A stretch of 31,437 nucleotides of DNA from Isohypsibius dastychi (lineage: Eukaryota > Tardigrada > Eutardigrada > Parachela > Isohypsibiidae). A program made the position numbers and the translations under genes. The notes beneath the pieces were generated by a model that did no database searches, was not told the origin of the DNA, and saw only the letters and a list, made by a program, of their open reading frames with translations. Positions 8,240 through 29,273 of the stretch are shown here, in pieces. The stretch covers positions 1 through 31,437 of the forward strand of contig JAQIWT010000151.1 in NCBI GenBank assembly GCA_034696485.1. The letters are read 5' to 3'. Each line of letters begins with the position of its first letter. The first letter of the stretch is position 1.

Positions 8240-8373
8240 GGTCTGAGTTTGGGATAAGGTTACATGTAGAACTTCCTTGTGGGACTGTCAGATTTCTTTC
8301 GAGTATTGTTAGTTACAAGAGCCTGGGTGTATATTTCAGAATGTGAACTTGCGGAACTCTCTGAGTGGCCCTT

Positions 8374-8379
8374 AATAAA
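8374..8379 (+). terminator. AATAAA poly(A) signal of hillarin
   Basis: A canonical AATAAA lies about 135 nt after the hillarin stop codon, a usual 3' UTR distance for a compact invertebrate gene. I see no competing hexamer between stop and signal. Confidence 0.7.
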
Positions 8380-9818: not shown

Positions 9819-12800
9819 ATGCCATCTCTCCACAAACACTTGGCTGTTCCAAGTCTTCAGTCCTGCTGTGAAGCATTTTTGCTATCAAATGCTGATGTCA
9901 AGGATTATATCATGGTTTACCTATTTGCTGTACATCTTCAAGCCAGTAATCTGGCATCAAAAGTTTGGACGTTGATACTGAAAGAGGGAGAAGAAATGTG
10001 CTCGAAAAAACTCTTCCTCAACTTAAATGAGACCCAGGTAAGAAACTGATATCGAATTTACGACCCACTTTTAACGTTGATTATCGTAGATGGCAGACTT
10101 TCTGGCATCCGATGATTTGTGCGTTACTGACGAGTCAACATGCTGGTATGCGCTCAAGGCATGGTATAATCATGACCAACAGAACCGTGGAGTTTCTCTC
10201 AGTCGCCTGTTGGCATTGGTCAGATTCCCGCTCATGAAGGTATTGCTCAACATTGGATATGGGCAAAAATTTTAGACATTTGTACTACAGAAAACGATAT
10301 TGAGACATATCGAAGCTGAAATCAGAAAAGATGATATTCTCAAGAATATTGTATCACCATTGATTGACTCGGCACGTTCAATGCATAAAAAGAAGGACGT
10401 TTCATTCGAGACCAGCCATTCGAAATATGGATTGAGGAACTCAGGTGAGCCACTGTAGATTGTCAGTTTCAAACACGCTCACGTAGTTCACGTTTTTTTT
10501 CTTTCAGGCTTTAAAAGTGGTATTCTTATGTTTTGTGACCGGTTAGAATTCCTGCCGAAAGTTCCTCCATCATTACGCAGACCATCAATCTGTTACGGCC
10601 ACACTGGTCGACTCCTAATCGGTGTATTCGACCCCCTCACAAAAAGTAGTTCCTGGCTTCGTGAAGTGCCAGATTCGCTGTGGCCTGAACTAATTTGTCG
10701 GTCAGCAAATGGTGACCTCTTTGTATTGGATAATGAGTCTCTCAATTCAACAAGAGTGCTAAGATATTCTCTTGGAAGTGATTCATGGGAAACCAACATT
10801 CAAGTTCTATCTGGTTGGAGTTTTGGTGAGTACACGAACAGATACGATTTACTGTCAGCAGGAAATTTAACATCAGGCTTAACAGGACTCTGCACCATTG
10901 CTGACGTTTTGTATTTATTTTATGGAGGAAGTCCAATGGAATCAATCCAACAGATGTGGTGTTTAAATCTATCGTTCGAAAAAGAACGCTCGGTAGATAA
11001 ACTGGAGATACCGTTTCTTGGGACATGCAGCACGGAGATTGTTGCAGTTCAGCAGTGTATTTATGCGTTCAATTGCTCTACAAAGCATTTATCGTTCATC
11101 GGCGATGCCAGACAAACTTACTGCTTTGACACTACATCATCAAGCTGGTCACAGAAGTCAGACTGTCCAAAGACCGCCGGAAGAATCCAAACCTTTTGTT
11201 CTCATTCTGATGGACTGATATATTTCTTGGGTAAGGATGAATGCTAATACTGAGATTACCAGGCAGGTATCCATTGTCTGCAATAATGCAGGCTCGAAAT
11301 ATCACGGCAAATGGCTGCAGCGGTGCGTTCTCTATTGTTACAATCCCAAAATTGACACCTGGTCCTTTGTTGCAAGTGAGGAACTGTTATAATAAAGAAT
11401 ATGACAAGAATATGCACCACATTTGAGATGAATTCTTTTTGCAGAGATCCGCAAGAATCTGGACCCACAAACTGTGACATCGTGGGGGAACGTGCTGGTA
11501 ATCAAGAATAAGACCGCCTGGTGGCATTGGCGAGATTGCAGCATTTCGCCACCAGAGCATGATATGTAAGCACCAAGCAGTAACCATACCTAAGCACGAG
11601 AAATCAGACCTAGGTTTGAAACGATTCCATGACTCGGAAAAAATGTATTTATCTCCTTATGAACCTGGCAGAACGTGCGCAAACAGAGGTCCTTTATGAA
11701 TTCTTTGGTTGCAACATCACGATCTTATCTTTGGGTGGGGAACGGTTCAGTCTCTTCAGTCTGCTGGATCAGCGCAGTACTTCATTATCGAAGCCCGATT
11801 AAAAGCTTCCTTTTTTTAGTCACTGCGAACACGGCGTTGTGCATGACACATGCGAATCTTGCTCTGGATGGACTGTCAGTATATACGATCCAGCGGAACA
11901 TTCATGGGTTTCAAGCGAAAAGATGGATTCCACTGTGTGCGGGGAATCGTTGGTTAGCCTCACTTTCAGAATACGCAAAAGTAAGTTTGCGGATCAATGA
12001 AAAAAAATGCTGTGCAACCCGCTCGTTTCACTCACTCTGTTCAATCATAACACATCGTCAAAAAAACCCCAGTGGAACACTTGGAATTCATTCAAACGGC
12101 ATAGTCCTTAACTTGGGTCGCCATACGTTGCCTTTTAACTTCATAATTTACAGTATATCAAATATGTTACTTTGCGGAATACTAAGCAGTTTTTCTGCTG
12201 GTGACCTTCTGTTTTCATTGATTTGTTAAATTCAGATCCGCTATTTTGTAATTCTAAGACAGAATCTAATGATTTTTTATGCCGGATCTTTTAAACTATA
12301 GCTTGAGATTCTTGATGCAACGATCACAAAGTTCAATTCGTGAAATCAAGCCTAATGGCTATTACCGCTATCTACCAGTTTCAAAGAGAAATATATTAAA
12401 TAGCGGTGGAACTGAAGGTCATTTCGAGTGAAGTCTCAGGAAAATAAGATTAAGATTGTTTGGGCATGGGAAAGCGGGGGACTGGGTGAAATGGGCCGCG
12501 GACGTAATTTTGTGTTCTAAGGAATCCCTTTTCCCGCCAGGTTTAAATAATGGTTCGGCGAAAAACATGATATCACATCGAAAATGCGCACCGGACTTTG
12601 GGAAAAATCGCAGTTCCCATGATTCAAACATTACTGGTAAATCCTTGTTGCTAAATGAACCACATAAAGCAGGTCATATTTCTCATTCGTATGAAACTGT
12701 TCGAGAGTTTTCTTCAAATTGCAAATTGACAGGTAGCACACCACCAAGTCTCTGCTTGCCCAACAGATCACACATCTGGCAAATTGCCACTTTCAACTGT

Positions 12801-13198
12801 TGAATATGAACAATTCGATCCCATTAGTCTAGTTTTCCATTGAATAGTATATTCACAATATTTTCAACCAGAAAGCATCCAGATGACGGATTTCGATATT
12901 CACCAGATCATGGTGTGTGCCCATCGGGAAGCGTGATTTCTTGAGCCGTGGAATCACGTTATTTTCCTTTCCTGTCCTGTTTTGGAATTGTTGGCGAAAC
13001 TTTGAGTGAGTTTTGAATGATGTCTTTGTTCCAGGCGCACTTACTGAACGACATGATGACATCCGAACTGTAAACTTGAAGTATTCACCAAATTCAGAAC
13101 GCTCTGTACCGAGGTCGGGAGTGGATGAGCATGGAATACGAGGAATGTCTTCCGTTTTTTGGCGGCTACGTGGGCTTTTCAAAAACCAAAAGCACTGA
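9819..13198 (+). CDS. BACK-kelch protein without a visible BTB domain (copy A)
   Basis: Eight exons join in frame: 9819-10037, 10090-10239, 10291-10444, 10508-11230, 11292-11375, 11445-11565, 11820-11980 and 13035-13198 (TGA). The summed length is 1776 nt, exactly 591 codons plus stop. Residues 1 to about 165 match the helical BACK domain and the BTB-BACK linker (for example SCCEAFL, SDDLCVTDEST, VRFPLMK). The rest has kelch-type blades ending in Asp/Asn-Pro-x4-Trp or similar: VFDPLTKSSSW, CFDTTSSSW, CYNPKIDTW, IYDPAEHSW. Such proteins usually bind substrates for CUL3 ubiquitin ligases, but CUL3 contact needs the BTB domain. An in-frame TAA at 9798 precedes the chosen ATG, so a BTB domain would need an upstream exon I cannot find. 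The exon-3 acceptor at 10291 was preferred over 10276 because the latter leaves only a 36-nt intron. The last exon is conserved in copy B. Confidence 0.82.
11981..13034 (+). other. last intron of kelch copy A
   Basis: It begins GTAAGT and ends GTTCCAG, in phase 1. Copy B has a 472-nt intron at the same place (28638-29109), so the two copies differ by several hundred bases here. No exon was recognised inside. Confidence 0.7.
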
Positions 13199-13572
13199 CC
13201 ATGCTGGAGAGGGATTCGGTCGCATATTCTTTCAATGATCAGCCAGCTGAATGGTACGGAAAAACTCGAATATCTGAATAGCTAGAGCATCAGTTTGTAA
13301 TGATTAGCCACAATTTTCTATGTATTTTCGGATGCATCTTTTGTTAGTGTACATGTATCTCTGTATGGAGATACGAGAGTATTCAATTATTGTGGTGATG
13401 TATGTACATTGTGGTAAGCACGTGTAAGAGAGGACATAGTCTCATCTCCAGAGCGGACTGACAGATGGAGGCTTGACTACCGATAGACAACAAGCACACC
13501 TCGAACTTCAACTTTTATATTTCTTTTCAGCCCTCTGCGATTCTAATAAACGTTACTTTCATGAATTTTCGA
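13199..13572. other. 3' flank of kelch copy A and junction of the tandem duplication
   Basis: The part up to about 13440 resembles the flank of copy B (29274-29522), with shared landmarks such as TATTCAATT and ACGTGTAAG. From about 13500 the sequence starts to resemble hillarin intron 4 and exon 5, so the join between duplicated units lies near 13440-13540. No gene is present. Confidence 0.45.
13545..13550 (+). terminator. possible AATAAA poly(A) signal for kelch copy A
   Basis: This is a canonical AATAAA about 347 nt after the kelch stop. It may instead be chance sequence at the duplication junction, because copy B has no hexamer at the matching place. Confidence 0.4.
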
Positions 13573-13628
13573 GAATTTAAATCTACTGGGGATCTAAATA
13601 GACATTGATGACAATATTGGTCAAGATA
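13573..13628 (+). pseudogene. left fragment of the hillarin pseudogene, cut by the transposon
   Basis: About 56 nt align with hillarin exon 5 near 6470-6518. An 11-nt stretch, TTGATGACAAT, is identical, and 14 of 19 positions before it match, with a 13-nt insertion between. The next aligned base after the transposon is at 25821. The match is weaker than on the right flank, so the joint is probable rather than certain. Confidence 0.5.
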
Positions 13629-13630
13629 TA

Positions 13631-13658
13631 CCGGGTGGTCCACTATTTTTGACCACAA
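13631..13658 (+). repeat. left terminal inverted repeat of the 12.2 kb element
   Basis: It starts CCGGGTGGTCC directly after TA and pairs with 25791-25818. Similarity to the ends of the nested element at 18838-19759 extends to about 13745. Confidence 0.8.
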
Positions 13659-14229
13659 ACTTTGGGACAGTGCCGCTAGCGCCCTTTTCTCCCAAACTTG
13701 TGGTTTTTAGCATAGCCGATAGAGAATTCATTTCTCTACTCAGTTTCTTTTCGGATTTTTTGGATCTCATGGAACACAACCTAGTGTCGAGTTTGAACAA
13801 AAAATTCGGGCAAAACGATCGATTTTAGTATCGGTTTTGTCTTGATGTTTAAAAGACACGATCAGTTTTCTTCCATTTGGTGACTGAATTTTCTCAAAAA
13901 TAGAGAAATGGTTCTAGATTTTTGTGCTATAGTTAGTTCGATAGCGAATTGAATTTTGTATCGGGTACTGGGCATCGGGAATGATTTTATCTCAACTGTC
14001 TTGATCAGGAAAAAAGACGAGACATGATGCTGGTTAGGACAAGAACTGTGTTTTGAGGTATTTGCTGAGAACATTGGAACAAGTCAACATGAGACAACGA
14101 TGTGGAACAGAAATGAAAACCGGCTAATATGGCCTCCAGTAAACCCAATGAATTATGAAAAAGGGTCCACAGTTCAGAACAGCCAACAACGATAATGTAG
14201 TTAGTGCAGTGTAACACATACCTAGGTTC
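13659..14229. other. left subterminal region of the element, no gene
   Basis: Positions up to about 13745 are like the ends of the nested 922 bp element. The rest carries only short chance frames. The subterminal array starts near 14230. Confidence 0.5.
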
Positions 14230-15130
14230 TAACGGAACACTGTCAACAGGCGGAACAACAGTCAACCCAATTGCACAGATACTGGGGTTCACATGGAACA
14301 CTGGAACACCGGAACACTGTCAACAGGTGGAACAACAGTCAACCGAGTCGCACACATACTGGGGTTCTCATGGAACACCGGAACACTGTCAACAGGCGGA
14401 ACAACCGTCAACCCAATTGCACTGATACTGGGGTTCTCATAAAACACTGAAACACCGGAACACTGTCAACAGGTGGAACAACAGTCAGCTCAATCGCACA
14501 CATACTGGGGCTCCAATGGCACACTGAAACACCGGAACACTGTCAACAACCGGAACAAGTCAGCTCACTCGCACACATGCAGATGTTCTCATGGAACACT
14601 GGAACACCGGAACACTGTCAACAGGCGGAACAACAGTCAACCCAATTGCACAGATACTGGGGTTCACATGGAACACTGGAACACCGGAACACTGTCAACA
14701 GGTGGAACAACAGTCAACCGAGTCGCACACATACTGGGGTTCTCATGGAACACCGGAACACTGTCAACAGGTGGAACAACAGTCAACCGAGTTGCACACA
14801 TACTGGGGTTCTCATGGAACACTGGAACACCGGAACACTGTCAACAGGTGGAACAACAGTCAGCTCAATCGCGCACATACTGGGGTTCTCATCGAACACT
14901 GGAACACCGGAACACTGTCAACAGCCGGAACAAGTCAGCTCTGTCGCACACATACAGATGTTCTCATGGAACACTGGAACACCGGAACACTGTCAACAGC
15001 CGGAACAACAGTCAACCCGATTGCACAGATACTGGGGTTCACATGGAACACCGGAACACTGTCAACAACCAGCACAACAATCAACCCAATTGCACACATA
15101 CTGGGGTCCTCATGGGACGCTGTTAACAGC
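14230..15130 (+). repeat. left subterminal tandem array, about 12 units of 69-81 bp
   Basis: The core GGAACACTGTCAACA recurs about 12 times (near 14235, 14312, 14383, 14457, 14536, 14608, 14686, 14755, 14836, 14909, 14984, 15054). Units also share TGGAACACTGGAACACC, GTCAACC and CACACATACTGGGGTTC, with point changes between units. The array is open in several frames only because its units lack stops. The right end of the element holds a related array in inverted orientation, so this is likely a transposase-binding or end-assembly region. Confidence 0.88.
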
Positions 15131-15733
15131 TGGTGCGGTTGTAGCCAGTGTAGAGTGAGCAGGGAGCTGATGCAATATTGGAACGTTGTCAACAGTTTAA
15201 GATTGTAAGAGTGAATTTCCGAAGGCTAGGGAACTGTGACAGTTGAAGTCACTGGTAACACAGTGAAAGACTCGTTGGTTGGTGCGCCCGCCCTTTCAAT
15301 GGCGGGAATGTGTTAAAGCGAGATGTTTTCACTCTCAAAGTTTCTTTGAGTCCAATAGTCAACAGCTAGTCTGCCCCATACGGAAACTCATATTGAGTCC
15401 TTACCCAATCAATTCCAAGCTTACAAGGAAAATTCTGTCTGAAAATAAAGCTACTTTGGTTCGAACATGGGAGTTTCAAAGTCATAAGCCAGAGATTCGA
15501 TGCATCGTTTAGCGTGGAGAGCTTTGCAGTAAGCTGTGTACTGCATCAAATTGAGAGCCATACCACACATACACTAACACACCAAGAACCGAAATTCGAA
15601 TTTTTGACTCTTCCGAATACCTGTTATTCTCTGCAAGAAAAAAAATCTCGAATTTGTGAGTATTCAACTTCATAGTTCGTATCTGAGAGGTGAGTGTTTT
15701 CCGTTCATAGTTTCACTGGCGTGAGAGCAGGTA
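15131..15733. other. spacer between the left array and a MITE
   Basis: No gene-like frame, RNA gene or clear repeat was recognised. Short frames such as 15279-15512 have no motif. Confidence 0.5.
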
Positions 15734-16307
15734 CAGTAGAACCAACCGAGTGGACCACCCCACCGTGCCTGGTTTACTGGTCCACTTCCATAGGTGGTCC
15801 ACTTACACAGATTCCACCCTAGGTATGGACACCAGACTTGAACGTCGGACCCCTACTTGTAAACACTACATACCCTTTTGGTTTTTTGGTGGGTTGTCTC
15901 ATTCGTTTCAAGCTAGCAACCTTCACGCAACCAGTTGTTATCAATATTATTTTACTTATGTCCGCCAATGTTCGCTGGAATATTTTGGAATCCAGAATCA
16001 AGATCACTCGAAGCTTCTAGTTTTTGCTGAAGCGTGAGCTCATTTGGTCGGCTCTTTGCCTACGTTCAGACATCTTGTTTGATACAACTATTTTAACTGA
16101 GTAACGAAAATGGCCCACATAACTGGTTGACCAATAACCACGGTGCCTGAGTTACTGGTCCACTTACACAGGTGGTCCACTTAGAGTGGTCAACTCACAC
16201 AGATTCCCCCCTATCAAAAATATCAGAAGAAAATTTAGTTCCAATTTTGTTGGTCCACATACATAGGTGGTCCACATACACAGAGGTCCAATTAGTTGGT
16301 TTCACTG
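15734..16307. mobile_element. 574 bp pogo-like MITE
   Basis: The ends CAGTAGAACCAACC and, reversed, CAGTGAAACCAACT match at about 17 of 22 positions and are flanked by TA on both sides (15732-15733 and 16308-16309). CAGT-starting ends with TA duplication are typical of pogo/Tigger and Tc1/mariner relatives. No coding capacity. Inside, the motif GGTGGTCCACTTACACAG and variants repeat several times. Confidence 0.7.
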
Positions 16308-16464
16308 TATAATAGAATGAAAAAACACAAAAGTGAGACTGGAAGATAAACAATCTTCATTGAAATCAAGCTACTGCTGTACGCCAAAAAGCAGTTAAGA
16401 TTTGTTCTGGAATGATAACCGTGCCATACATATTCGAAATCAAGACTTGAATAGCAGGTCTATC

Positions 16465-16470
16465 TTTATT
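16465..16470 (-). terminator. AATAAA poly(A) signal of the KDZ transposase
   Basis: On the minus strand a canonical AATAAA lies about 55 nt after the transposase stop codon (stop at 16525-16527). The close spacing suits a compact transposon gene. Confidence 0.7.
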
Positions 16471-16524
16471 CAAAAAGGTCGGAATTCCCGATTGTCGGCG
16501 GATTCAAGCAGGGTCTCTATGGCG

Positions 16525-19500
16525 TTAATCCTTCAATTGAAATTCCAAATACCGATTGTGCAGTGTAATGATGCGGTGAAAATAAAAAAGTTGTCGGCTC
16601 TTTGGCATCTTGTACGTATTTTGTTTGTATTTCCGGAACCAAGAGAAGCACTGCTCTGCACACTGCGTGTTCGACGACTTCAAATCAGGATGCGTCTCTT
16701 TGATGCGATTGGGATTGTAGATGGTTTTGCAGTCGTGGCCGACGTGGTTACCAAGGTGGAAAGCGTCAATCACTTTCGAAACCTTGGCCCACATCTGGTC
16801 ATATGGTTGGGGAAGCGGCAACTTTTCCTTCGTAGCTTTCAGTTTGTCCAGCTGACACATGTTGTCGTACGCTAAGAATATGTCACCCCATTTACTCTCT
16901 GGCACATTCTGGAGTATTCCGTACAACCAGCTGATGACGATGAGGAACACTTGTGAAAGCGATTCCGCTCTTTAAAATAAATCACAAATAATCAGTAACG
17001 CTGTAGACAACCTCTGTCACTGAACTGATTATGAGCAACAATTTACCCATAAATAGGTGAAAATGTTTCGATGTGGCCTCCTGCACGAACTATGAAAACA
17101 TATCCTTTGGTTCTTGTTGACTGAACTGTCAGCTGGCCTGAATTTTTGGAACATGATGACCCTTCACTGAATATCTCGCCAGATTTCATATCACTCTCGG
17201 TGGTCTTGAGAGATTTGAATTTTTTCCTGGAACTCACTTTCTGACAATTTTTGCCCTCTCCCGCGTGAGTTGTATCTTTTTGCTCGATAGGGAGCTCAAT
17301 CGTGGCGTTGGTGAGCTGAGTCAGAAATCCATCAACACCTGTATAATTTGAAAAATTGTGTGCAACATCATACCAGTTCTAGTAACGGTGCAAAAAGCAG
17401 TTCGCATAGATTTATAGATAGCCATACCTTGTAAATGCAGATTTCCTGATGTCAGCATGCCACGAACGTCGCTGCGATACGCCGGAATATCCAAAGCTTC
17501 TGCAATAGACCTGTGCCTGATGCAAAAAAGTGCTCCCTTCTTCCGTTCTACTTCACCAGGACAAATTTTGGGGAAGTTGAGAAGCTGGATATTTGATACA
17601 GTATTCTAGGAGGAACAAAAAATACTTGTTTCTAGCAGATATCTTCAGATCAACCCAACTTGAACCTCTTGAACGAATGCACAATGCTGCATTGTATTCT
17701 TCCAGTTGCCATCGATTGCAAACAGCAGACCACAGCCTCGCTCCTTGCATTTAGTGCTGCACTGGTGTTGATAAGGTGACTTGCATCGAAGTTCGTCTAT
17801 CTGCGGCAGGACTTCGTCCAGTTCGAGATCGCTTACAAAGTCAAAAGTATGCGTGTCGGTTTCTCTCAGCTCCCTCTCAATTTCGAACCGAAAGAATGCA
17901 TCTGACACATTCAAGCGACTGAACTCTGTAACACCGATACATTAACATCAAGCTTATTGAACATTAATTCTGGATGAACTCACGTTCAGTTAACGCGTAT
18001 GTTTGTGACCATACTGCAGCGAATCCATCGAAAGTGCTCTGGGTATGGACTCTGCAAAGTTAAATTCTGGAATAAACTGATTATCATCATCTTCGAATGC
18101 GGAAATCCCGCTTTTTCTTACATGCTGTTCGTTAGCAACAGGCACAAGTCACGCGTCCAGAATATTTTCGAGGTGATCCGAACATGAGCTGCTGGTTGGT
18201 CGTAAAACGAGTATTTTCCAGTCGATCCATCAAGATACATGTCATACAAATATCGTGAACCACAGGTGTTGGATTTACCCCGGCATCGCAAGTTTGGGAT
18301 AAGCACCTTCGTTCTGGTCCCACCGGCTCCAAACAAGACACCCTGTTTGAACAATTTAGCTTAACAAAACCCCTCCTAATTCGTGATCAACGAGTACAGA
18401 ACAGAAACAAACGCGATGAGTAACCACACGCGTAACTGGAAACGCTACTCACTTCGGTAGACTCATTGTGAACCTCGAGCCTGTACGGTTCATTCCGTTT
18501 TGCACCTTTCGTGTACAAGCAACCACTCAAACACACTGTAGTTGCAGGCATCAGCACCAGGGGCAAGGTGTCTTTGGGAAATACCAGGAGCACCGGCGCA
18601 TTCGTCAAGACGAATTCATAGGCTTCCGTCATGTCAGCAGCTGTCATATCCACGAGCAGAGCCAGTTTCTGTCAAGGAAAATAACGTGGTAAATCATAAG
18701 GCACTCATCGCGTTAGTTTCTGTATGCACCAGGCCCATAACATTTCTGGTCAGTGATCACGTTAGCAGACTTTCACCTGAACCGTAGCCCTCGCTACAAA
18801 GGTGTTTCTAAATACGACGGCTGAATGGTTTAACTCACCGGGTGGTCCACTATGTTTGACTGTAAACTTTGGTAGTGCAGCTCGTCACCGTTGGTCGAAA
18901 ACTCGTAACTTTAAACGCGATCGATATAGAATTCATTCATCTATTCGGAACTGAGCAGGCTATTTATATGTATCGAAACCTGTCCAAGAGGTGCTGTAAA
19001 ACTGAGGGCCGGTCAAAACGCGCCATGGCTTTTTGACATTTTTTTGTTTCAGCAAAGTTTCCTTCAAAACAGCTATTGATGCAATGGTCGGTTCACCATG
19101 TTTCTGATATTCACGCATACGAAAAAGGCTATTCTTGGAAGCTGCAGTTGGTTTTGATAGAAAAATCGGGTTGACATGGTGGAAAATGCGCAAAAACCAA
19201 AACTGGCAGTTTTCGGAAAAATTTTGAGGTTTTCTTGAGCTGACAAATTTAAACTCTGATACAAGAGACATTAGTTTGTTCGTTGTGTTTTTGGCTACAA
19301 AATGAGTGGCTTCAGTGGCCGGTCCAATACCATCGAAGACCACCAGCGGCACAGAACCGAAAGTGAAGAACACGTAGCCGCGAAAAGAGGTTTTCGAAGA
19401 ATTATTAGTTTACGAGGTTGCTGCATCTCTTCGGTGCTTCATCCAATCTCGGCATATCTGCTATAAAAAATGTAGCGCTTTAAAAATCAACAACAAAAAG

Positions 19501-20375
19501 TCTCGCTGATGCAGGAGAAAAAAGTTGTTCAAGGGTTTGGCAGATTTCAAATTTTTTTGTCAAGCCATGAAATTTTCTGACTATTTCTTCTTCTTTTGAC
19601 GCTCATGGCGGAAATCTGTTGTTCATCGTTCAGTTAGACATTCGGTCCGATAGAAAAATGGATTCTCAACCGGCTGTGCTAAAAACTACAAGTTCTGAAG
19701 TATAAGGGGGCAAGCTGTACCACCCCAAAGTTTACAGTCAAAAATAGTGGACCACCCGATATAACAGAATACTGATACATGTGGTGCTCATCAACTCAAC
19801 TGCTTTGAGCAAACGAAAATGCCAAACCAATGGTCAGCAAGCTTTTGCAACAAACAACAAGGTCTTACCGTTATAATTTCCGTGGGTAAATCTTCCATAC
19901 TGCCCGAGCATGAATGAAGAAGACGCATCTTCTCGATGATTTCCCATCCATATTTCTGAACACAGTCTGCGACTCCTGTATGTCCCGAATTCATCTTGAT
20001 AAGCTCACAAAAATTCTGCTTGAAAATTGCTTGAAACATCAACAAAAAATTCGAGACAGTTTTAAAACGAGATGAACACTTGATCGCTTTATTCTGGATA
20101 AAATTGAATTCGGTCGGCTATCATTGTTCGCTCTAGAACTTGGCACTGGTTTAGGAGGTGTAAACAACTCGGGCCTTTACTGCGTACGTCACGCTGCTTC
20201 TTTGTGCAACATGAACAAAACAGATCGGTTCAAAGTTCAAATTGGACAGAGAGCGGTCGAACAAAGAATGCAGCTCGGCCGCTTTCTCAAACGTTGTAAG
20301 CCACGATAGTTCACTTGGGTAGCTTTCTGGACTGGCATGTTCAGCTTTAAAGAATGATGTGAATCTACAAATCAT
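16525..20375 (-). CDS. KDZ-superfamily transposase (Kyakuja/Dileera/Zisupton type), intact
   Basis: Nine exons read leftward: 20375-20181, 20018-19869, 18668-18453, 18342-18122, 18051-17984, 17925-17666, 17605-17428, 17338-17047 and 16969-16525 (TAA). They sum to 2025 nt, exactly 674 codons plus stop, with no frameshift. Family signs, in order: YLYDMYLDG and AAHVRIT, a Cys cluster with GCGLLFAIDGNW (Asp about 355), FPKICPG...FCIRH, RTKGYVFIVRAGG, YGAESLSQVF, YDNMC (Asp about 562), DAFHLGNH...CKTIYNP, and CAEQCFSWFRKYK (Glu about 632). This layout matches KDZ transposases and the related domain of animal HMGXB3. The two Asp and one Glu are plausible catalytic residues of an RNase-H fold (inference). 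The first exon's start and the exon-2 acceptor are the least sure. Intron 2 carries a nested element. Confidence 0.85.
18838..19759. mobile_element. 922 bp non-autonomous element nested in transposase intron 2
   Basis: The ends CCGGGTGGTCCACTATGTTT and, reversed, TCGGGTGGTCCACTATTTTT form imperfect inverted repeats of about 110 bp. The right flank is TA (19760-19761) and the left is CA, a likely mutated TA. Both ends resemble the left end of the 12.2 kb element for about 110 bp. A minus-strand ORF at 18960-19373 has no known domain. Without the insertion the host intron would be about 278 nt. It is probably mobilised by the transposase that acts on the large element's ends. Confidence 0.8.
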
Positions 20376-20396
20376 CTTGTCAATTTTCGGTCCAAA
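20376..20396. promoter_or_regulatory. 21 bp between two divergent start codons
   Basis: The leftward transposase ATG (20375) and rightward ATPase-PHD ATG (20397) are only 21 bp apart. Either transcription starts inside each opposite gene, giving overlapping 5' ends, or one true first exon lies elsewhere. No TATA box is visible in the gap. Confidence 0.45.
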
Positions 20397-23300
20397 ATGT
20401 CGAATGAGCAGTCAGCGGATGACTCGATCACGTTAATTCAGGTGAGTTTCCAAAATTGTTTCGTACGAATTATTCACGATATTTGGTACGATGCTGATTC
20501 TCAAAATCTGACCGAGCTGTTATGAAGGAGCCCAAAATCAAGCTACGATTCAAGGAGTATGACGGCAGAACTTACTACGGAAAGAAAGGAAAGCCGATTG
20601 AGATTGACAGCTGGATTCTGAGCTTTACCCTACGATTTGAGTACTACATCACTGGTTCAGCAAATTCAGAAACTTCTGGTCAAGTGTGTAGCCTAAGATT
20701 ACGTGAGAATCCTGATGATAGAAGGTAAGAAATTTTGCTCGTTTGGAATGCCCTGAAGAGCGAAATCTCTCGATGCCGCCTGTGGAAAGCATACTACCCC
20801 CCCCCCCCCCCTTCCCCTCGCACCTGGGGCTTCAAACATGGTATCATACGTGAGAGCCTAACGTAATCTAGTGTGATGCACGTGACTTATCATGACGTCC
20901 TGTGGCATGCGTAGCATATCGTGCGTGACGAACTGTTCCATACGTTACGTAGCGTGGATGACGTACCATTCCGTACGTGCTGTAGCGTACCGTTCGTTAC
21001 GTGTAAAGCCCTGTGTCTGTTGACCTGCACTATTCAAATCTCAGTCTGCTAAGCCAAAAGGTCGTGAAAGTAGTTTGTCTAATAAGCGACTGATCAGTCA
21101 GGGATATCGGAGCTTTTGTAGGTCGCCGTCCTTTTGGGCGGGGACAAAAAAATGTTGTCACAAATACGGCTAACCCGCGTTCTCAAAACAGGGAGGTTTT
21201 CATAAGGAATACATCCTGGGGTAACCTAAAGGATTTCTCGACTGACCTGAAGTTGGTACCAACGTTCACTAATCTATCTTCCGGAATACTGCAAAAGTAT
21301 GGAGAATGGAAACGCGAGCAGTTTATCAGGTTGGTTAGCATTTATGGATCGTATTTGCTGTTCTGCCTTGAATACATGCCCTTTTCGTTTAATAGAACCT
21401 GCAAAACAGAGGGTCGTCCAGAAAGCAAGTCAGCGATACGTTGCTTGGGTTTCCAGAATTCGTCGATGGGCGCCGAAAATGCCTGGTGCGCTGGGCCTGA
21501 TTTTATTTTACAGTTATCCGCAGCTGGTTGGGTCAATGCTTCACGGGAGAGCCGAACTTTTGAATGGACTCCGCGAACATCAGAAACGGTGGATCGGACT
21601 TTTGAAGTCTACACAGGTGGAAAAACATGTCGGCTCCTGGCTGTATTGAGAAACAACCTGCCAAGTGAATCATTCATGGCTTTCCTATTAATGTCGGGTG
21701 AGAATGCTTGCCCATGCTGCTAGAACTAAAGCTCTCGGTTCTCACTGAACAGAGTGCACACTCTTTTTTGGGTCTAGGACATACTTGGCTGAGCACATTG
21801 TACAAAGTTCTCATCAAGCCCTTGGAAGCCATTCCGTGCCTAGTTGCTTACGGACCGACTGCTACAAGGAAGTCGAAGCTTGCTGTCTGCGCAACCAGCT
21901 GGTTTGGATCCAATCTGGGTGAAATCTGCAGTTTGGGAAAGGTTTCAGAGTTCGGATTCGGAGCGAACGCAAAATCTTATGCCTTGCCCGTGATTATCCA
22001 CGACATCGACGACACTAAGCTGATGGCCGCACTCATATCCAGTTCTTACGAGTGCCTCCCAGTCGTCACTGCAAGTACATCTCGGAAAGGATTTCGCCCA
22101 TCTTCTTCCATTCTATTCACAATGAATAACGATACACTGAAGTCCTTTCATAACCGTTGCAGAAAAGACAGAAAGTATATCGTCTCTGTCTAATTGATGT
22201 GAACAATTATGGCATCAGTTATATTTCAGCATGCGACCTCTTTCAAGAGCAGTTTTTATCTGCATGGACAAAGTTTCGGGTGATTTCGAAGAACGAGTAG
22301 AAGCCGATTTGAAAAAACAACTCCGTCGCGCTTCACGTTACATCTGCAGCCTACTTCAAATGGATGACTCCTCATTGATCGACCTGAATCGACAAGTAAC
22401 TGCGAGAATCCGCGATATTCGGAGTATTCTCGACAGAAATGGGGTGACCGAGAGTCGAGATCGCATCGCACGTTCGTGGGCGGTTCTGTGGACGGCGACC
22501 GAAATGGTATGTTAGTGGTGGGTTTTAATTCAAATATCCAGCTAGATTTCCTAATTTTCCAGTTCTTATCACGTGTGGGTGGGAACCCGACAGACGAGCA
22601 ACAACTGAAATTTTTTGTTGAGAACCAACTTGTCCAGTCTTCTTGGCTCTATCAGTTTGAGTTTGAGGCAACATGTTCCCAAACAATGGAAAACACTGCA
22701 TTGCTCATGGAGAGGCTGACCGGTTTGCTGAAGTTCCTCCGCCCCGTTGTTGCATCGGTTAGTGAACCCTAGAATTATCGCATGGACACATCACAGTTTC
22801 AGTCTCTGTTTCAGTGGGACCATATCGTACGTGGGCTGTCGACAAATCGTCCTGGCCTAGAGGAAGCACTGGCTTTGAACGTTGAACAAATGAGAACTGA
22901 GTGCAAACAGGCTTCAGCATCGCTGGATTACGAGAAACTCTTCAATGACCTGTACAATATTGACGGTATTGTTCGTGGTCATAGAACCAGATTCGGAGGC
23001 GGAGGTGGCAGTAATGTACGGGCTCTGCTTATTCCGAAATCACTTGCTCCTATCGAACTTCTGGAACTCGTGGGTGCAGGTAAGAGGCTGTTTAGATCGG
23101 TCTTATTATGAACGGGAGAATCACATGCTCCATGACAGATCCGGATCCAGCTACGAGCATGTCTCGCTCAATGCTAGGATCAGCTGGAAGCCGCGGCACG
23201 TTGTTGTCCCTGCCTCTGTCGAGCAGTACACCATTGAAAGTGGGGAAAGAACAGGATGCACCCCGGCTGAGAAGCAAAAACTATGAGTTTGGTTAGTTTG

Positions 23301-24186
23301 AGTTTTCTGAACTGCTCGAGGAATACAGATACAACGCAGATTGATACCCAGTCAAACCAATTTTTCTGTATTTAAGATGCAGCCGATCCCTCGATGGTAC
23401 ACGAAGATTCACCTGTGGGTTCAGTGCACAACTCATTTTCGATTCCAAGAGATGTGCAGAGACTCAGTCAGCCGGTTTCCATTTGTGAGGAACGATTCGA
23501 TGTCACGCAGCCACACAACAATGAAAGGAACAAAAGAGAGAGAGAAAATGGTCAACTTGCAACAGAACGGAAGAGTGAGTGAAATAGCTGTTAAATGGAT
23601 CTTTTTGTGACCAAAGTTTTTATTAAGGTCCTTCCGATGTAACCGACGTCTCTGTGGAGATCAGACGGAGTGCATTTGCTAACAAGCTGCCCATTTCTGG
23701 TGTTATGCACGAATCTGTACATGAGCAGGCTGTTGTTAACCCCGGTATGGTTTTCTGCCTATAGCTGTTTATAATTCTCACCCTTGATACATTCAGGAAC
23801 CACAAAACAAAGACGAAACTGCGACCGTCTGCGAGTGGAAATGAATTCACAAGGTTGTAGGCATCGGCGTCTGCAAAAGCAAAATTATCAGCTAATGCGA
23901 CAGTGTTTTCGTATGAATTTCAGACAACCCCAAAGCGACACTGGCAAAACTCAGGAAACGCTTTAAGTCTGATCCAAATAACATGGTGAAAACGGTCCAG
24001 TGGAAGTGTGAAGATTGTCATAACGATTTGGATCTGAGTGAGCTGCTTTTTTCGTGGTTGACCTGCAGCCAGTGCTCCAAGGCTTATCACGAGCGATGCA
24101 TTGTTGGTCCAGCTAAATTGCTCTCTTCTCGGAACAAAGCTCGGGCAAAGCAGTGGAAATGTTCAAACTGCACAATCAATTCCTGA
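20397..24186 (+). CDS. ATPase-like protein with C-terminal PHD finger, transposon-encoded
   Basis: Thirteen exons: 20397-20441, 20528-20724, 21192-21329, 21396-21697, 21778-22174, 22230-22506, 22563-22757, 22815-23079, 23139-23291, 23377-23574, 23628-23744, 23797-23853 and 23924-24186 (TGA). They sum to 2604 nt, exactly 867 codons plus stop. Residues 1 to about 225 are unrecognised. At 253-260 GPTATRKS sits where a Walker A loop would be, VIIHDIDD (299-306) resembles Walker B, SSSILFTMN (336-344) a sensor-1 strand, and MRPLSRAVF an arginine finger region. This order resembles AAA+/SF3-type ATPases, but no subfamily is recognised. Helical and low-complexity polar segments follow. The C-terminus has a complete PHD finger: C809, C812, C828, C831, H836, C839, C860, C863. 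The 66-nt intron 21330-21395 is open in frame and may be retained. The role is inferred to be a chromatin-targeting or assembly partner of the KDZ transposase. Confidence 0.72.
20797..20811 (+). repeat. 15-C homopolymer in intron 2 of the ATPase-PHD gene
   Basis: An unbroken run of 15 C is followed by TTCCCC. It could be real or an assembly artefact. It is intronic, so the reading frame is not affected. Confidence 0.7.
20860..21005. repeat. ACGT-rich degenerate repeat cluster in intron 2
   Basis: Elements such as ATACGTTACGTAGCGT, TGACGTACC and TTCCGTACGTGCTGTAGCGT recur with about 25-35 bp spacing over 145 bp. They are partly palindromic, centred on ACGT or TACGTA, and stand out from neighbouring introns. 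The rest of the intron (20725-20860 and 21005-21191) shows nothing. Confidence 0.5.
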
Positions 24187-24620
24187 GTGCGTCCTGATAA
24201 ACTGAGACAGCAGGAGATTAATTTGTTATCAGACGTCTCAGACTTCGATTATTCATTTTGTTTTTCATTTTCTTGTTAAAAATTTTTTTTCTTGGTAAAC
24301 CGTAGTTATAAGTTTCATTTCCTCGCCTAACTTTGAATTGCCAACCATGTTACCATCAAGTTCATGAATACCACGGATTTCAGTTTCTCTTGTTTTGAAC
24401 TCTTCGATGGTGAGGTGAAGGAAATGAACAGTGGTTGCTTTGCGCTTAACGGCCAAACAGTCACGATCTTCAACCTTTCGTTCGCGAGTAATTCAAACTG
24501 CTGACACGGTTCTGGTATTACAGTATTCCACAAGCATTGTCATTCCTGTTCCAGCGATTGACTGTGTGCTAGTATATTATCGCGTACCCCGATAGTTGTG
24601 TCAGCCTTGACTTCTGTTAC
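24187..24620. other. 3' flank of the ATPase-PHD gene
   Basis: No canonical AATAAA was found close after the stop. The AT-rich tract near 24255-24290 may hold a variant signal. Small antisense frames (24265-24533) have no recognisable content. Confidence 0.4.
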
Positions 24621-24629
24621 CGCTGTTTA

Positions 24630-25440
24630 CACTGTTCCAGTGTTCCACTGAGAATCCGGTGTAGACCTGCTAAAGCAGGATGTTCCCAGTGTTGACTGTG
24701 TTCCAGTGTTCCAGTTCCACTGAGAATCCAGGGTGGCCCCCTGCAGCAGCATATTCTCGGTGTTGACTGTGTTCCAGTGTTCCACCAAGTCTTGAATGTG
24801 TGAGCCTGCTACAGCAGGATGTTCCCAGTGTTGACTGTGTTCCACCAGGTCCTGAATGTGTGAGCCTGCTACTCAGGATGTTTTCGGTGTTGACTGTGTT
24901 CCAGTGTTCCACTGAGAATCCGTGGTGGCCCCCTGCAGCAGCATGTTCTCGGTGTTGACTGTGCTCCAGTGTTTCACCAAGTCTTGAATGTGTGAGCCTG
25001 CTACAGCAGTATGTTCCCAGTGTTGACTGTGTTCCATCAGGTCCTGAATGTGTGAGCCTGCTACTCAGGATGTTTTCGGTGTTGACTGTGTTCCAGTGTT
25101 CCACTGAGAATCCGGGGTGGCCCACTGCAGCAGCATGTTCTCGGTGTTGACTGTGTTCCAGTGTTCCACCAGGTCCTGAATGTGTGAGCCTGCTACATCA
25201 GGATGTTCCCAGTGTTGACTGTGTTCCAGTGTTCCACTAAGAATCCGCGGTGGCCCCCTGCAGCAGCATGTTCTCGGTGTTGACTGTGTTCCAGTGTTCC
25301 ACCAGGTCCCACTAGTGTGTGAGCCTGCTACTCAGGATGTTCCCGGTGTTGACCGTGTTCCACTTGGCGTCTTGTATGTGTGATATGCATTGCGATCACT
25401 GCTGTTTTCGCTGTTGACTGTGTTCCGGTGTTCCATTTGG
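24630..25440 (-). repeat. right subterminal tandem array, about 12 units, inverted relative to the left array
   Basis: The core TGTTGACTGTGTTCCAGTG recurs about 12 times at roughly 56-75 bp steps between 24690 and 25425. Read on the minus strand the units contain TGGAACACTGGAACAC, GTCAACA and CACACAT, the same words as the left array in the same order. Interspersed variants carry TGAGCCTGCTACAGCAGG and CCCCCTGCAGCAGCATGTTC, suggesting a higher-order repeat of two alternating unit types. The peptide frames across it are by-products. Confidence 0.88.
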
Positions 25441-25445
25441 TCCCC

Positions 25446-25790
25446 TGTATGTGTGGGAAGGCTGCCATTCTTCCGTGAAACTGTCAGATGGCTGTTCTCC
25501 GGATCAAATGTATTGAACGAGCGGAAGGAATGTGGCCTCGTATTACAACCGTTGACTTGGGAGTTTGCAGTGAAGTTAGCTGCCTGAATATTTAGAAGTG
25601 CTATCCTTGCTGTGCACGGAGTTCATGATTACATCAAGCGACATGTTAATGTGGGCGGGTAATGAATTACTCCTTCTCAAGCTTATCCTTCTGTTCACAC
25701 CGTCACCCCATGTTGACTTGTTCCCGTGTTTTTAAATCACGTCAAAAGATATTTGTTGTCCTGAACAGCATCATGTATGAAAAAGACAAA
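25446..25790. other. right subterminal region of the element, no gene
   Basis: It links the right array to the right terminal repeat. No gene-like frame or clear similarity to the left subterminal region was seen. Confidence 0.5.
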
Positions 25791-25818
25791 GTGTAGTCAA
25801 AAATAGTGGACCACCCGG
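25791..25818 (-). repeat. right terminal inverted repeat of the 12.2 kb element
   Basis: It is the reverse complement of the left end over 23 perfect bases and ends in CCACCCGG directly before TA. Inside this stretch the sequence departs from the left end, so the TIR is short or the right subterminal part was rearranged. Confidence 0.8.
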
Positions 25819-25820
25819 TA

Positions 25821-26711
25821 CCAATGAGAATTCTCCGCGGAATTAAACATGGAATCGAGACCTATCATGTCTTCTTCAAACTCCTTTGCAGGGACTTGAA
25901 CTCTACGTCTGTTTGGGTCAGACAGCATGTTGATGCATTTCATGTATTCATCCAGTCCAATCAATTAAAAAAAGGAAAATGACGTCCTTTTGGATCCAAT
26001 CAGAACATATTAGCACAAATTCTAATCAGTAGTGGGGAACCCAAAGGGTCTCCTCTGCTCTTCTGATTTGAGCTCTTAGTCGTTTTGTCACTGTTACGCC
26101 GGTTTCCACTTCGTATCAATGAAAGGCTACCAATGCTTGAAAAGCGCCGGCTACTAGCCAGGTGTCACCTTCGTGGCAACAGGTTCCGTAACTCCTGGAA
26201 TGCAGTATATGTTGTCAATTCATGGCGATTCGTCCAGTGTAACAGGGGTGCTCGTCATTAAGTCAACGCTTAGGAAGACCCCCCCCCCCCCCCCGGGAAG
26301 CAAAGCGCAGAGTAGCGAAAATGGACATGGTAACCTTGGTCATCATGTTCTTCCGGTTTGTTGATTTATCTCTGACTGAAGTAAGTGACTTATCTCTTCA
26401 AGAGGACAGCCCGCGATAAGAGTATGACGACCATTATTTCCTGACTGACACAGAAGAGTTCGTCTATGAGTTCTATCCCCTTCAGAGTGAATGGCAGCTA
26501 TTACGACGGCCAGTTACTCGTCAGAAATTCGAACAACTGCTCTTCGTTAGATCACTCTTTTTCCGGCCTTGATTGTGGTTTCCGGATCAAACGACGAACG
26601 GTGTGATCCCGACAGACGCGTCTGGAGCGGCGACCATCAGGACTACCATGCCACTTGAGATTACTAACCGGCTTATATTCCACTATAACCTCAAATTCTA
26701 CGATAAAGAAG
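25821..26711 (+). pseudogene. hillarin pseudogene (parts of exons 5-7)
   Basis: Three exon copies are recognisable at about 25821-25891, 26094-26329 and 26402-26711, roughly 85% identical to the functional exons. Splice sites are broken: the exon-5 donor GT is GG and the exon-6 acceptor AG is lost. In-frame stops include TAG for Gln near 26153, TAA in the VNAK region near 26258, TAA near 26415 and TGA near 26570. A 16-C run (26279-26294) sits in exon 6. Exon 8 is missing. Exon 5 is cut by the 12.2 kb transposon, whose insertion may have followed or caused the decay. Confidence 0.9.
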
Positions 26712-26934
26712 GTTAGCCAGTGAAACCTCATTACTAAGTAGAGAACTAAGAAGGCCTGAAACATTGGATTTCGCTCCCGGTAGTGTAATGCAGCGTCGAG
26801 GTGGGAGGGCGGTTCTTGGTGAAAACACCCGAAACTGCCTCACCGGCTACCTGTAGATTGAGTCTGTGGAACTGAAACGAGAAAATGCTTTTCCAGAATT
26901 TCTGCTTACAGTACTTTGGTTTTTTGATATTACT
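26712..26934. other. deletion join between the hillarin pseudogene and kelch copy B
   Basis: In unit A about 2.9 kb separates the matching points (hillarin intron 7 and kelch exon 3). Here only about 220 nt do. Similarity to unit A stops soon after 26715 and resumes near 26935. Confidence 0.55.
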
Positions 26935-29273
26935 ATTGAAATAGGAAAAGATGATATTCTCAAGGATATTGTATCACCACTCATCGACTTGGCACATTCA
27001 ATGCAAAAAGACAAAAGCCTTTCATTCGAGACCAATCATTCCAAATATGGACCGAGGAGCTTCAGTTAGCTAAATTATCGCTTTCAAAACTGCTCATTGC
27101 AGATTTTTTTCATGCAGGCTTAAAAAGTGGTATTCTGACCTTTTGTGACCGATTAGAGTTCCTGCCAAAAGTATCTCCATCACTGCGCAGACCATCGATC
27201 TGTTATGGCCACACTGGTCGGTTCCTAACCGGTGTATTCGACCCCCTTACCAAGAGTGCTTCCTGGCTTCGTGAAGTGCCGGTTCCGATGTGGCCTAAAC
27301 TTGTTTGTCGGTCGGCAATTGGTGACATGTTTATAGTGGATAATCGGTCTCTCAATTCAGCAAGAGTGCTGAGATATTCTATCGGAAAAGACTCATGGGA
27401 AACCATCGTCGAAATTTTCACAGCTTGCATTTTTGGTGAGTACATGAAAAGATATGATTTGCTGTTCGCAAAGAATTTCATATCATACTTAACAGGAACC
27501 TGCGCCATTGCTGACGTTCTGTACTTGTTTTTTGGAGAGAGTCAGGAGCAACTGACGGAAAAGATGTGGTGTTTGAATATGTCCTGCGAAAGTGAACGCT
27601 TTGCAGATAAATTGGAGATACCGTTTGTTGAGACCTGCAGAACGGAGATTGTAGCAGTTCAGCAGTATATCTATGCGTTCAACTGCTCTTTGAAAAATGC
27701 TCCCGTCGTCGACAGTGCCAGACAAACTTACTGCTTTGACACTGCATCATCAAGCTGGTCACAGAAGTCAGACTGTCCAGAGAACGCCGGAAGATTGCGA
27801 AAATTTTGTTCTCATTCTGATGGTTTGATATATTTTTTTGGTAAGAAGAACGGGGATACTGAGGTAACCAGGCGAGTATTCTTTGTTGACTTTTATGCAG
27901 GCTCGGAAGTTTACCGTGAAGGCATGCGGCGGCCCGTTCTTCATTCTTACAACCCCAAAATGGACACTTGGTCCTTTGTTGCAAGTGAGGAACTGTTGCC
28001 ATATTATAAAGAGAATTCACCAGATTCATGATGAATTCATTTTGCAGAGATCCGCAAGAACCTGGACCCAGAAACTATAACATCTTGGGGGGACAAGCTT
28101 TTCATTAAGAATGAAACGGCGTGGTGGCACTGGCAAGATTACAGCAAACCTTTTTCGCCACCGGAACAAAATGTGTAAGCACTTATTGGCTGTAATTTCC
28201 CGTTCATACATCTGCTTTGGGCACTAAAATTCAGACTTCAATTCGGAAATGACACCTCTACTACGAGAGAAAAAATTTTACGTCTGCTTGAACCTTTTAC
28301 CCCGTTTGTGAACCCGGAGACTTGTTAGAACCCAGTCTGGCAGAATCTGCGCAATCAAAGAAATAATTGGAAATTTTCGATCCTAAAATCACAGTCTGTG
28401 GGGGAGAACTTGCCAGTCTGCTTGATTAGCGACGAACTTCGTTATTCAAGCCCGTTTAAACGCTTTCGTTTTTCAGTCACTGCGAACACGACGTTGAGCA
28501 TAATACATGTGAAGCTTGCTTTGGAATGACTGTCAGTGTATACGATCCAGCGAAACATTCGTGGATTTCAAGCGAAAAGATGGATCCTACTGTTTGCGGG
28601 GAATTTTTACCTAGCCTCACTTTCAGATTACGGAAAAGTATGCAGCTCATAGGAAAAGCGTGATTTTCTCGGTTTGGAAAGCGAAAAGCGGGTGTGCTGG
28701 CGGGCCGGAAACCTGATTCCATGATGCAATTAATCATGTTTTCCGGCGGGATAAAACCATGATCCGGCGAGAATCATAAGACCACATCAAAATGAATAGC
28801 AGACCTCTGATAGAACACAAATCACCAGGATTCAAAGAAAAGATCCTTATTGACACATTTTAACACGTGTGGCCGAATGAACTAACTAGAAAGCACAGCT
28901 GTTTCTGGATGAACACAGCAAATTATGATTCTCACCGCTATAAAACTGGTTTAGAAGTGGGGGTTTCTAGCCGGCTACATGTTTGCGGATTGCGGTACTC
29001 TGTCCTAACCAAACCTGTAGTCTTTTGCCCCGAACTTCGTTTCTTATGCTGATATCCCTGTTGTTTTCGATACTTTTTGTGAGTTTTGAATGATTGTCCT
29101 CTTTTCCAGCCGCAGTTACTGAAAGACATGACAACGTTCAAGCTGTCAACTTGAAGTATTCACCAAATGCGGAATGTTCCACAGCGAGGCGGGGAGTGGA
29201 TGGGCATGGAATACGAGGGATGTCTACCATTTTGTGGCGGCTACGTGGACTTTTCAAGAAACAAGAGCAGTGA
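26935..29273 (+). CDS. 5'-truncated kelch paralogue (copy B), open through its last five exons
   Basis: Exons match copy A: about 26935-27065, then 27118-27840, 27901-27984, 28048-28174, 28477-28637 and 29110-29273 (TGA). The last five join without stop or frameshift, in the same phases as copy A. They keep the blades VFDPLTKSASW, CFDTASSSW, SYNPKMDTW and VYDPAKHSW. Protein identity to copy A is about 70% by eye. The first half of BACK and any promoter of the ancestral gene are gone, and the donor after the first exon has changed (GT to TT near 27066). Intron 27841-27900 is 60 nt and stop-free, so it could be retained. Copy B may be a recent pseudogene or a kelch-only gene with a new start. 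Confidence 0.6.

Follow-up and report, generated by a model that had tools for sequence, protein, structure and literature searches.

The window, i.e. the entire stretch of 31,437 nucleotides of Isohypsibius dastychi DNA that was analyzed, contains a KDZ-type two-gene DNA transposon, which with corrected borders extends from 14019 to 25779 (11,761 bp). It carries a KDZ-type transposase gene on the minus strand (16525..20375; nine exons, 675 aa) and, arranged head to head with it, a plus-strand gene (20397..24186; 13 exons, 867 aa) coding for a protein with a predicted P-loop-like core and a predicted terminal PHD finger, referred to here as the ATPase-PHD partner. The exons of the transposase gene are located at 20375-20181, 20015-19869, 18668-18453, 18342-18122, 18051-17984, 17925-17660, 17605-17428, 17338-17047, and 16969-16525, and those of the partner gene at 20397-20441, 20528-20724, 21192-21329, 21396-21697, 21778-22174, 22230-22506, 22563-22757, 22815-23079, 23139-23291, 23377-23574, 23628-23744, 23797-23853, and 23924-24186. 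Both exon chains had been proposed in the initial annotation and were confirmed; all introns are of the GT-AG type, and the frames stay open over 2028 nt including the stop codon (2025 coding nt) and 2604 nt including the stop codon, respectively. Among the exons of the transposase gene, exon 1 has the weakest support. Intron 2 of this gene contains a 922-bp insertion of the CCGGG repeat family (18838..19759), which is not part of the element proper.

The transposase matches the Pfam model CxC5 (PF18718) with 29.6 bits (cut-off, 26.9 bits). The Pfam KDZ model (PF18758) did not match the protein at E values up to 1, and gave no match in the six frames of the genome or in the control genomes. 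Among the matches listed from a large protein set, homologs were identified in Acanthaster planci (P0001; E = 3.9e-67) and Mytilus edulis (P0002; E = 3.9e-51). P0001 is recognized in Pfam by CxC5 only; P0002 scores exactly at the cut-off of PF18758 (26.6 of 26.6 bits). The link of the window protein to the Pfam KDZ family runs via P0002, and judged by this homology the transposase belongs to the KDZ superfamily. Three acidic residues kept in all three aligned proteins, D354 (DGNWK; 17711..17713), D563 (YDNMC; 16864..16866), and E633 (AEQxF; 16654..16656), all encoded on the minus strand, are predicted to be catalytic and probably constitute the catalytic triad. The fold predicted for P0002 with P0001 had a pLDDT of 32, too low to be of use.

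The partner gene shares the phases of introns 1 to 8 with its relative on contig C284. Its P-loop-like core comprises, on the plus strand, a Walker A position (GPTATRKS; 21852..21875), a Walker B-like motif (LPVIIHDID; 21984..22010), and a sensor/motif C-like segment (ILFTMNN; 22110..22130) which reads TCN in four aligned relatives. Walker A is canonical in four of the seven copies read, and deviates in those of the window, C597, and C1401; in the window copy, an R occupies the site where the four canonical copies carry G. The P-loop assignment made initially needs qualification: the motif of the window copy is degenerate, the label “ATPase” is weaker for this copy itself, and it may have lost the ATPase step or depend on other copies for it. 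In pairwise comparisons of the ATPase cores of C284, C790, and C1347, the codon positions 1/2/3 that differed, of 117, numbered 39/23/79, 36/23/72, and 35/16/74 (pairwise rows at 2–6% identity were out of register and were left out), a bias such as would arise under purifying selection. The terminal PHD finger (24007..24171, plus strand) shows a C4HC3 signature with the ligands CEDC, CSQC, HERC, and CSNC, and all eight ligands are present in the window, C284, and C121. The PHD claim is supported by this signature, while the Pfam scores stay under the cut-offs (PHDvar_NSD, E = 2.7e-5, in the window). A PHD finger accompanies the ATPase also in C284, C121, C790, C611, and C597.

Searches of PDB sequences, Pfam, NCBIfam, and PHROGs did not yield a usable match to the ATPase core or identify an AAA+ domain in it; weak matches to Get3 (C-terminal to the P-loop), the P-loop of myosin, ABC proteins, and two functionally uncharacterized PHROGs were set aside. 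Relatives of the ATPase-PHD protein were found neither among the best 7993 candidates from the large protein set when region 200-620 of the window protein was used as query (E up to 0.1), nor among the best 7995 candidates when an alignment of five rows served as query (E up to 0.01). The fold predicted for the window ATPase exon alone had a pLDDT of 33, which was likewise too low to be of use. The order of motifs in the relatives (Walker A, LPxxxHD, TCN, SRxVxxP) would be compatible with a partner that serves the element other than by targeting, namely as an ATP-dependent helicase- or chaperone-like factor whose task is to remodel complexes or ends or to help with copying, the PHD finger being merely a chromatin tether. 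Compared by eye, the order and spacing of the motifs presumably resemble SF3 helicase or AAA+ layouts; however, no usable sequence match connects the core to a helicase or AAA+ family in the four collections searched, and we consider a role of this kind possible but rather improbable. Histone marks are commonly read by PHD fingers, which would also suit a partner that counters host silencing by opening or re-marking chromatin at the copies of the element. Pfam, however, detects no catalytic chromatin-modifying domain in the partner, and a role of the partner against silencing appears unlikely. Its purpose would be like that of the TET/JBP dioxygenases of fungal KDZ elements, which are proposed to act against silencing by methylation (PMC12730594).

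The initial annotation had described a single element of 12.2 kb bounded by TA-flanked terminal repeats at 13631 and 25818. These CCGGG...CCCGG repeats are indeed inverted and flanked by TA, but they belong to a separate family, a member of which is the host of the KDZ element insertion. The left part of this host element is located at 13631..14018, its last 8 bp being the duplicated target, and its right part, as delimited by empty-site comparison, at 25788..25818. The genome contains at least 33 matches to the left end of the CCGGG family, including that of the window, with TA flanks at most of the ends seen. A genome search with 13900-15300 revealed a sharp homology break at 14017/14018: five loci on five other contigs start at 14018/14019, three loci on three other contigs end at or before 14017, and the border point is crossed by just one of the 24 matches, that of the window itself. 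An exact 8-bp target duplication, AAAAAGAC, abuts both ends of the KDZ element (14011..14018 and 25780..25787) and sits within the CCGGG repeats, and two related CCGGG elements, on C873 and C909, span the junction without an insert. Because of the sharp break, the position of the duplication, and these insert-free relatives, the outer repeats were rejected as ends of the KDZ element, and the 12.2-kb span retains next to no probability. At the element's own ends, a TA duplication was not found.

The corrected ends form inverted termini of about 90 bp, a left imperfect repeat (14019..14112, plus strand) which starts with GAGACATGATGC, and a right repeat (25689..25779, minus strand) which terminates in GCATCATGTATG; the segments 14022-14112 and 25689-25776 share 77% identity. 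A right end found on C54 reads GCATCATGTCTC and complements the left end exactly. Contig C260 harbors a nonautonomous relative of 1,168 bp with identical termini and an 8-bp duplication, CGATGTCG, and both copies with two readable ends (window and C260) therefore show a duplication of this length. The ends of the C284 element were not found when inverted ends with duplications of 7–9 bp were sought (best, 8/14; for a duplication length of 8 bp, 7/14 as compared to 6 and 7 in controls). Inside the termini, about 12 units of 77 bp constitute a left subterminal array (14233..15122, plus strand), and a right array with units of 65–133 bp is inverted relative to it (24666..25455, minus strand). The inverted arrangement, as initially noted, is borne out by the heptamer GGAACAC, which occurs 26 times on the plus and not on the minus strand of the left arm (14019-15400), 20 times on the minus and not on the plus strand of the right arm (24501-25779), and once between the arms.

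That the KDZ transposase and the ATPase-PHD protein are coupled in one element, as had been suggested, is supported by repeated divergent pairing in the genome. The partner is not a single-copy host gene; ATPase loci are present on 13 contigs, not counting PHD-only matches on C469, C344, C35, C1514, C454, C1403, and C1193. Partner and KDZ gene occur together on eight of the 13 KDZ contigs, corresponding to eight of the 13 ATPase contigs, and are divergent in every case; in a simple hypergeometric estimate with 1,648 contigs, the chance of such pairing is about 1e-15. Moreover, the pair lies within inverted arrays in both the window and C284, and identity between partner copies is as low as 24–27%, suggesting that the association of the genes is old. 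Its recurrence on eight of 13 KDZ contigs indicates that the partner likely serves the element.

KDZ copies hence do not consistently lack the partner, but it was not found on five of the 13 KDZ contigs (C669, C906, C561, C98, and C1279). These contigs, and the partner copies without a nearby KDZ gene on C597, C319, and C493, would fit a host gene which was captured by the transposase or adjoins it by chance. Against such an origin stand the head-to-head pairs on eight contigs, the position inside inverted arrays in the window and C284, and the low identity between copies, and we regard it as very unlikely. C1279 has no sequence on the partner side, and C669 shows a C-terminal fragment. A KDZ gene was not found on five of the 13 ATPase contigs, i.e. 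the three mentioned above, C121, and C400; C121 and C400 start near the contig start, which does not account for the other three. C218 and C784 contain N-terminal parts of the partner only, and C1401 has stops in its copies of both genes. On C284, the ATPase-PHD chain is open, but the KDZ reading frame shifts near the first catalytic D, and this copy is therefore not claimed to be intact.

We put at about an even chance the interpretation that this transposon with divergent genes for a KDZ-type transposase and a P-loop ATPase-PHD protein encodes a transposase together with a chromatin-reading regulator which would help to choose the insertion site. The sequence itself shows both exon chains, the duplication of 8 bp, the arrays and ends in inverted orientation, the conserved D/D/E residues, the divergent pairing, and the codon-position bias; the working of the pair proposed here is a model. 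The short region between the two starts would drive both genes. Binding of the transposase to the arrays and ends would be followed by cut-and-paste movement of the element, with 8-bp staggered joining. The partner might bind DNA or the transposase in an ATP-dependent manner, its PHD finger might read histone H3, and it might restrain the transposase until a suitable chromatin target is met. By analogy to the RAG1-RAG2 and IstA-IstB pairs, it may be an ATP-dependent chromatin-reading regulator. More tentatively, and with the balance against it, the pair could mean that a RAG-like design evolved independently for a second time in animals, in which KDZ insertion would be licensed by an element-encoded, H3-reading ATPase-PHD protein, as a eukaryotic form of Tn7/IS21-type ATP-gated target selection.

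Some eukaryotic DNA transposons encode a conserved second protein, and V(D)J recombination is regarded as derived from one such pair, RAG1L-RAG2L. In the KDZ lineage described here, the orphan ATPase-PHD partner is kept in divergent pairing although ATPase identity between copies can be as low as about one quarter, and chromatin-guided and possibly ATP-gated insertion could thus be put to the test in a eukaryote. Knowledge of the true ends and the 8-bp duplication of this KDZ branch makes it possible to find further copies, as well as host genes domesticated from it, if there are any.

The literature searched, i.e. work other than the founding KDZ and Zisupton papers, did not show any KDZ element paired with an ATPase-PHD gene. 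The element resembles KDZ transposons (Kyakuja-Dileera-Zisupton, and KDZ1-3 of Cryptococcus neoformans) in transposase homology via a CxC5/KDZ protein and D-D-E residues, in its multi-exon genes, and in a size of about 9–12 kb (PMC12730594, PMC12810828, PMC9297572). The 8-bp duplication is shared with Zisupton and Dileera (PMC12730594) and with mobilized KDZ1 (PMC12810828), whereas duplications of 4–8 bp in KDZ2 and KDZ3 and of 7 bp in Kyakuja are given in the available portions of these reports (PMC12730594, PMC12810828, PMC9297572). The extra genes named there, on fungal TET+ Dileera/Zisupton elements, code for TET/JBP dioxygenases (PMC12730594), and none for an ATPase-PHD protein as found here; the subterminal inverted arrays and the CxC5 cluster, as opposed to CxC1 in KDZ1-3, are further differences (PMC12730594, PMC12810828, PMC9297572).

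In TransibSU, RAG1L-RAG2L also form a head-to-head pair of a transposase and a PHD-bearing partner, the Kelch-PHD protein RAG2L (PMC4411706). Its transposase superfamily is unrelated, however, its duplications are 5 bp, and its partner is a beta-propeller protein rather than a P-loop ATPase. Neither a RAG1/Transib transposase nor a 5-bp duplication was found in the present element, which has a KDZ-type transposase and an 8-bp duplication, and the likeness is one of layout only; homology is not claimed. KolobokP is a DNA transposon of animals which also encodes a second enzyme, a His-Me nuclease, besides its transposase, but differs in superfamily, partner, and its long terminal direct repeats (PMC9587614). 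The ATPases of IS21, Tn7, and Mu are bacterial AAA+ proteins, whereas the core described here has no AAA+ assignment by sequence. These AAA+ proteins are not known to contain a PHD finger. As in the arrangement proposed for the tardigrade element, a dedicated ATPase regulates site selectivity and catalysis of the transposase in the IstA-IstB, TnsB-TnsC, and MuA-MuB pairs of these elements (PMC11208146).

The two-gene KDZ-type element occupies 14019–25779 and is inserted within a separate TA-flanked element of the CCGGG family (13631–14018 and 25788–25818), whose terminal repeats the initial annotation had taken for the ends of the KDZ element. When the I. dastychi assembly was searched with 13900–15300, matches on contigs C260, C110, C1155, C1238 and C1124 started at 14018/14019, those on C873, C909 and C636 ended at or before 14017, and the break at 14017–14019 was crossed by one of the 24 matches, the window's own. 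The junctions read AAAAAGAC / GAGACATGATGC ... GCATCATGTATG / AAAAAGAC, where AAAAAGAC is an exact 8-bp duplication, and a search with the right end identified inverted termini (25689–25776 versus 14022–14112, 77% identity). CCGGG elements related to the insertion site are present, without the insert, on C873 and C909. The two window flanks, joined with one copy of the duplication retained, aligned continuously across the junction with both (82% over 295 columns and 79% over 296 columns, respectively), the only gap in each alignment being one base at the junction. The homology break, the inner 8-bp duplication and the empty sites therefore define the ends of the element and rule out the TA-flanked repeats at 13631 and 25818.

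A gene-free relative of 1,168 bp on C260 has the termini of the window element and is flanked by an exact 8-bp duplication of its own (CGATGTCG), and a right end on C54 (GCATCATGTCTC) complements the left end exactly. At another site, on C1155, 77 bp of the left end are 100% identical up to the last bases of the locus, an identity that speaks for recent movement of the element; that the available sequence breaks off within the left end is what a repeated, recent copy would lead one to expect.

The left end of the CCGGG family, many copies of which are about 935 bp long and carry TA-flanked CCGGGTGGTCCACTATTTTTGAC repeats, is matched at least 33 times in the genome, a count that takes in the window's own match; a second copy lies at 18838–19759 within intron 2 of the KDZ gene. 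KY-like and kelch-like coding pieces occur to the left of the KDZ element (6814–7417, 10317–11573, 11757–11983) and are repeated to its right (26080–26716, 26937–28182, 28414–28640) with 79–84% identity, and the element is thus flanked on each side by one copy of a host gene region. Together with the homologues of the transposase, these KY-like and kelch genes point to an animal host. Pieces of a Tc5/pogo-type transposase are found at 30199–31410 on the reverse strand (DDE_1, E 2.8e-39; HTH_Tnp_Tc5, E 1.9e-9).

The KDZ-type transposase gene (20375–16525, reverse strand) comprises 9 exons with 2,028 nt including the stop codon and codes for 675 amino acids; the ATPase-PHD partner gene (20397–24186, forward strand) comprises 13 exons with 2,604 nt including the stop codon (867 amino acids). 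About 20 bp separate the two start codons. The exon-chain sizes noted initially, 2025 nt without and 2604 nt with stop codon, proved exact, and all introns of both genes have GT-AG borders; the first exons are the weakest part of both models. The longest intron of the partner gene (20725–21191, 467 nt) contains a C run and repeated CGT-rich text.

The transposase contains a CxC5 cluster scoring above the Pfam cut-off, and the Pfam KDZ model gave no direct match to it. Scoring of the best word-sharing candidates revealed at least two homologues, from Acanthaster planci and Mytilus edulis, the latter with both CxC5 and KDZ, the KDZ match lying exactly at the cut-off. All three proteins share the predicted catalytic D, D and E positions (D354, D563 and E633 in the window protein). 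Duplications of 8 bp are reported for Zisupton and Dileera (PMC12730594) and for KDZ1 (PMC12810828), of 4–8 bp for KDZ2 and KDZ3 (PMC12810828), and of 7 bp, with inverted repeats absent, for Kyakuja (PMC12730594). Judged from sequence, the transposase and the 8-bp duplication agree with those KDZ marks that could be examined. Over 93 residues, a KDZ piece on C669 (last exon) matches its C284 counterpart with 96% identity and with 3, 1 and 17 differences at codon positions 1, 2 and 3; in the C669 piece, E replaces the second catalytic D.

KDZ and ATPase matches were each found on at least 13 contigs, and among the matches listed eight contigs carry both (C151, the contig of the window, C284, C1347, C790, C218, C1401, C611 and C784); the chance of this overlap is 1.2e-15 in a simple hypergeometric model, outside which lie the contigs' lengths and clustering. 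The pair is divergent on all eight, on the whole bearing out the head-to-head co-occurrence in multiple copies about which the initial annotation had asked; for C218 the searches recovered only N-terminal exons of the partner, and for C784 a single N-terminal exon. KDZ matches were also present on C669 (C-terminal part only; no partner within 10749–13000), C906 (no partner within 4385–6700), C561 and C98 (no partner in whole-genome searches) and C1279, where no partner was found and the contig has no sequence on the partner side. ATPase matches without KDZ were found on C121 and C400, both near contig starts, and on C597 (no KDZ within 7630–11200), C493 and C319.

The partner on C284 (10 exons, 805 amino acids) is divergent from a KDZ gene and shares 24% identity with the window partner and the phases of introns 1–8 (0, 2, 2, 1, 2, 0, 0, 1); it contains GETNTGKT and a PHD finger. 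Inverted arrays of a repeat differing from that of the window enclose this partner (5941–6806 and 13403–14058). Because its KDZ gene changes frame near the first catalytic D, the C284 element is not called intact. The Walker A motif is canonical in four of seven copies (C284; C790, GASNTGKS; C1347, GDSHTGKS; C121, GPRNTGKT) and deviates in C1401 (CPNNTGKT), the window (GPTATRKS) and C597 (GAQNGLAR); with its altered motif, the window copy may no longer turn over ATP. Among C284, C790 and C1347, the ATPase core shows about two changes at the third codon position for each change at the first, and three to almost five for each change at the second. For this core, searches of PDB sequences, Pfam, NCBIfam and PHROGs gave no usable match, and two protein database searches revealed no ATPase-PHD relatives among the best word-sharing candidates. 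PHD fingers resembling that of the partner, with no ATPase detected, occur on C469, C344, C35, C1514 and C454 and perhaps belong to another element with the same PHD type; the one on C469 adjoins an open reading frame that by eye recalls an Ulp1-type protease and has no Pfam match.

The two-gene element thus possesses ends, a target duplication and arrays of its own; its divergent gene pair recurs and appears to be under constraint. As the most likely mode of action, we infer that the transposase would cut and join DNA with an 8-bp stagger, that the arrays would supply extra binding sites close to the ends, and that the ATPase-PHD protein, by analogy, would be a chromatin-reading regulator that gates or steers insertion. 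RAG1L-RAG2L transposons (PMC4411706) likewise have a transposase head to head with a Kelch-PHD partner, albeit without homology to the present pair. The proposed role of the partner can be compared to that of the dedicated AAA+ ATPases that regulate the transposases of IS21, Tn7 and Mu (PMC11208146), again in the absence of homology.
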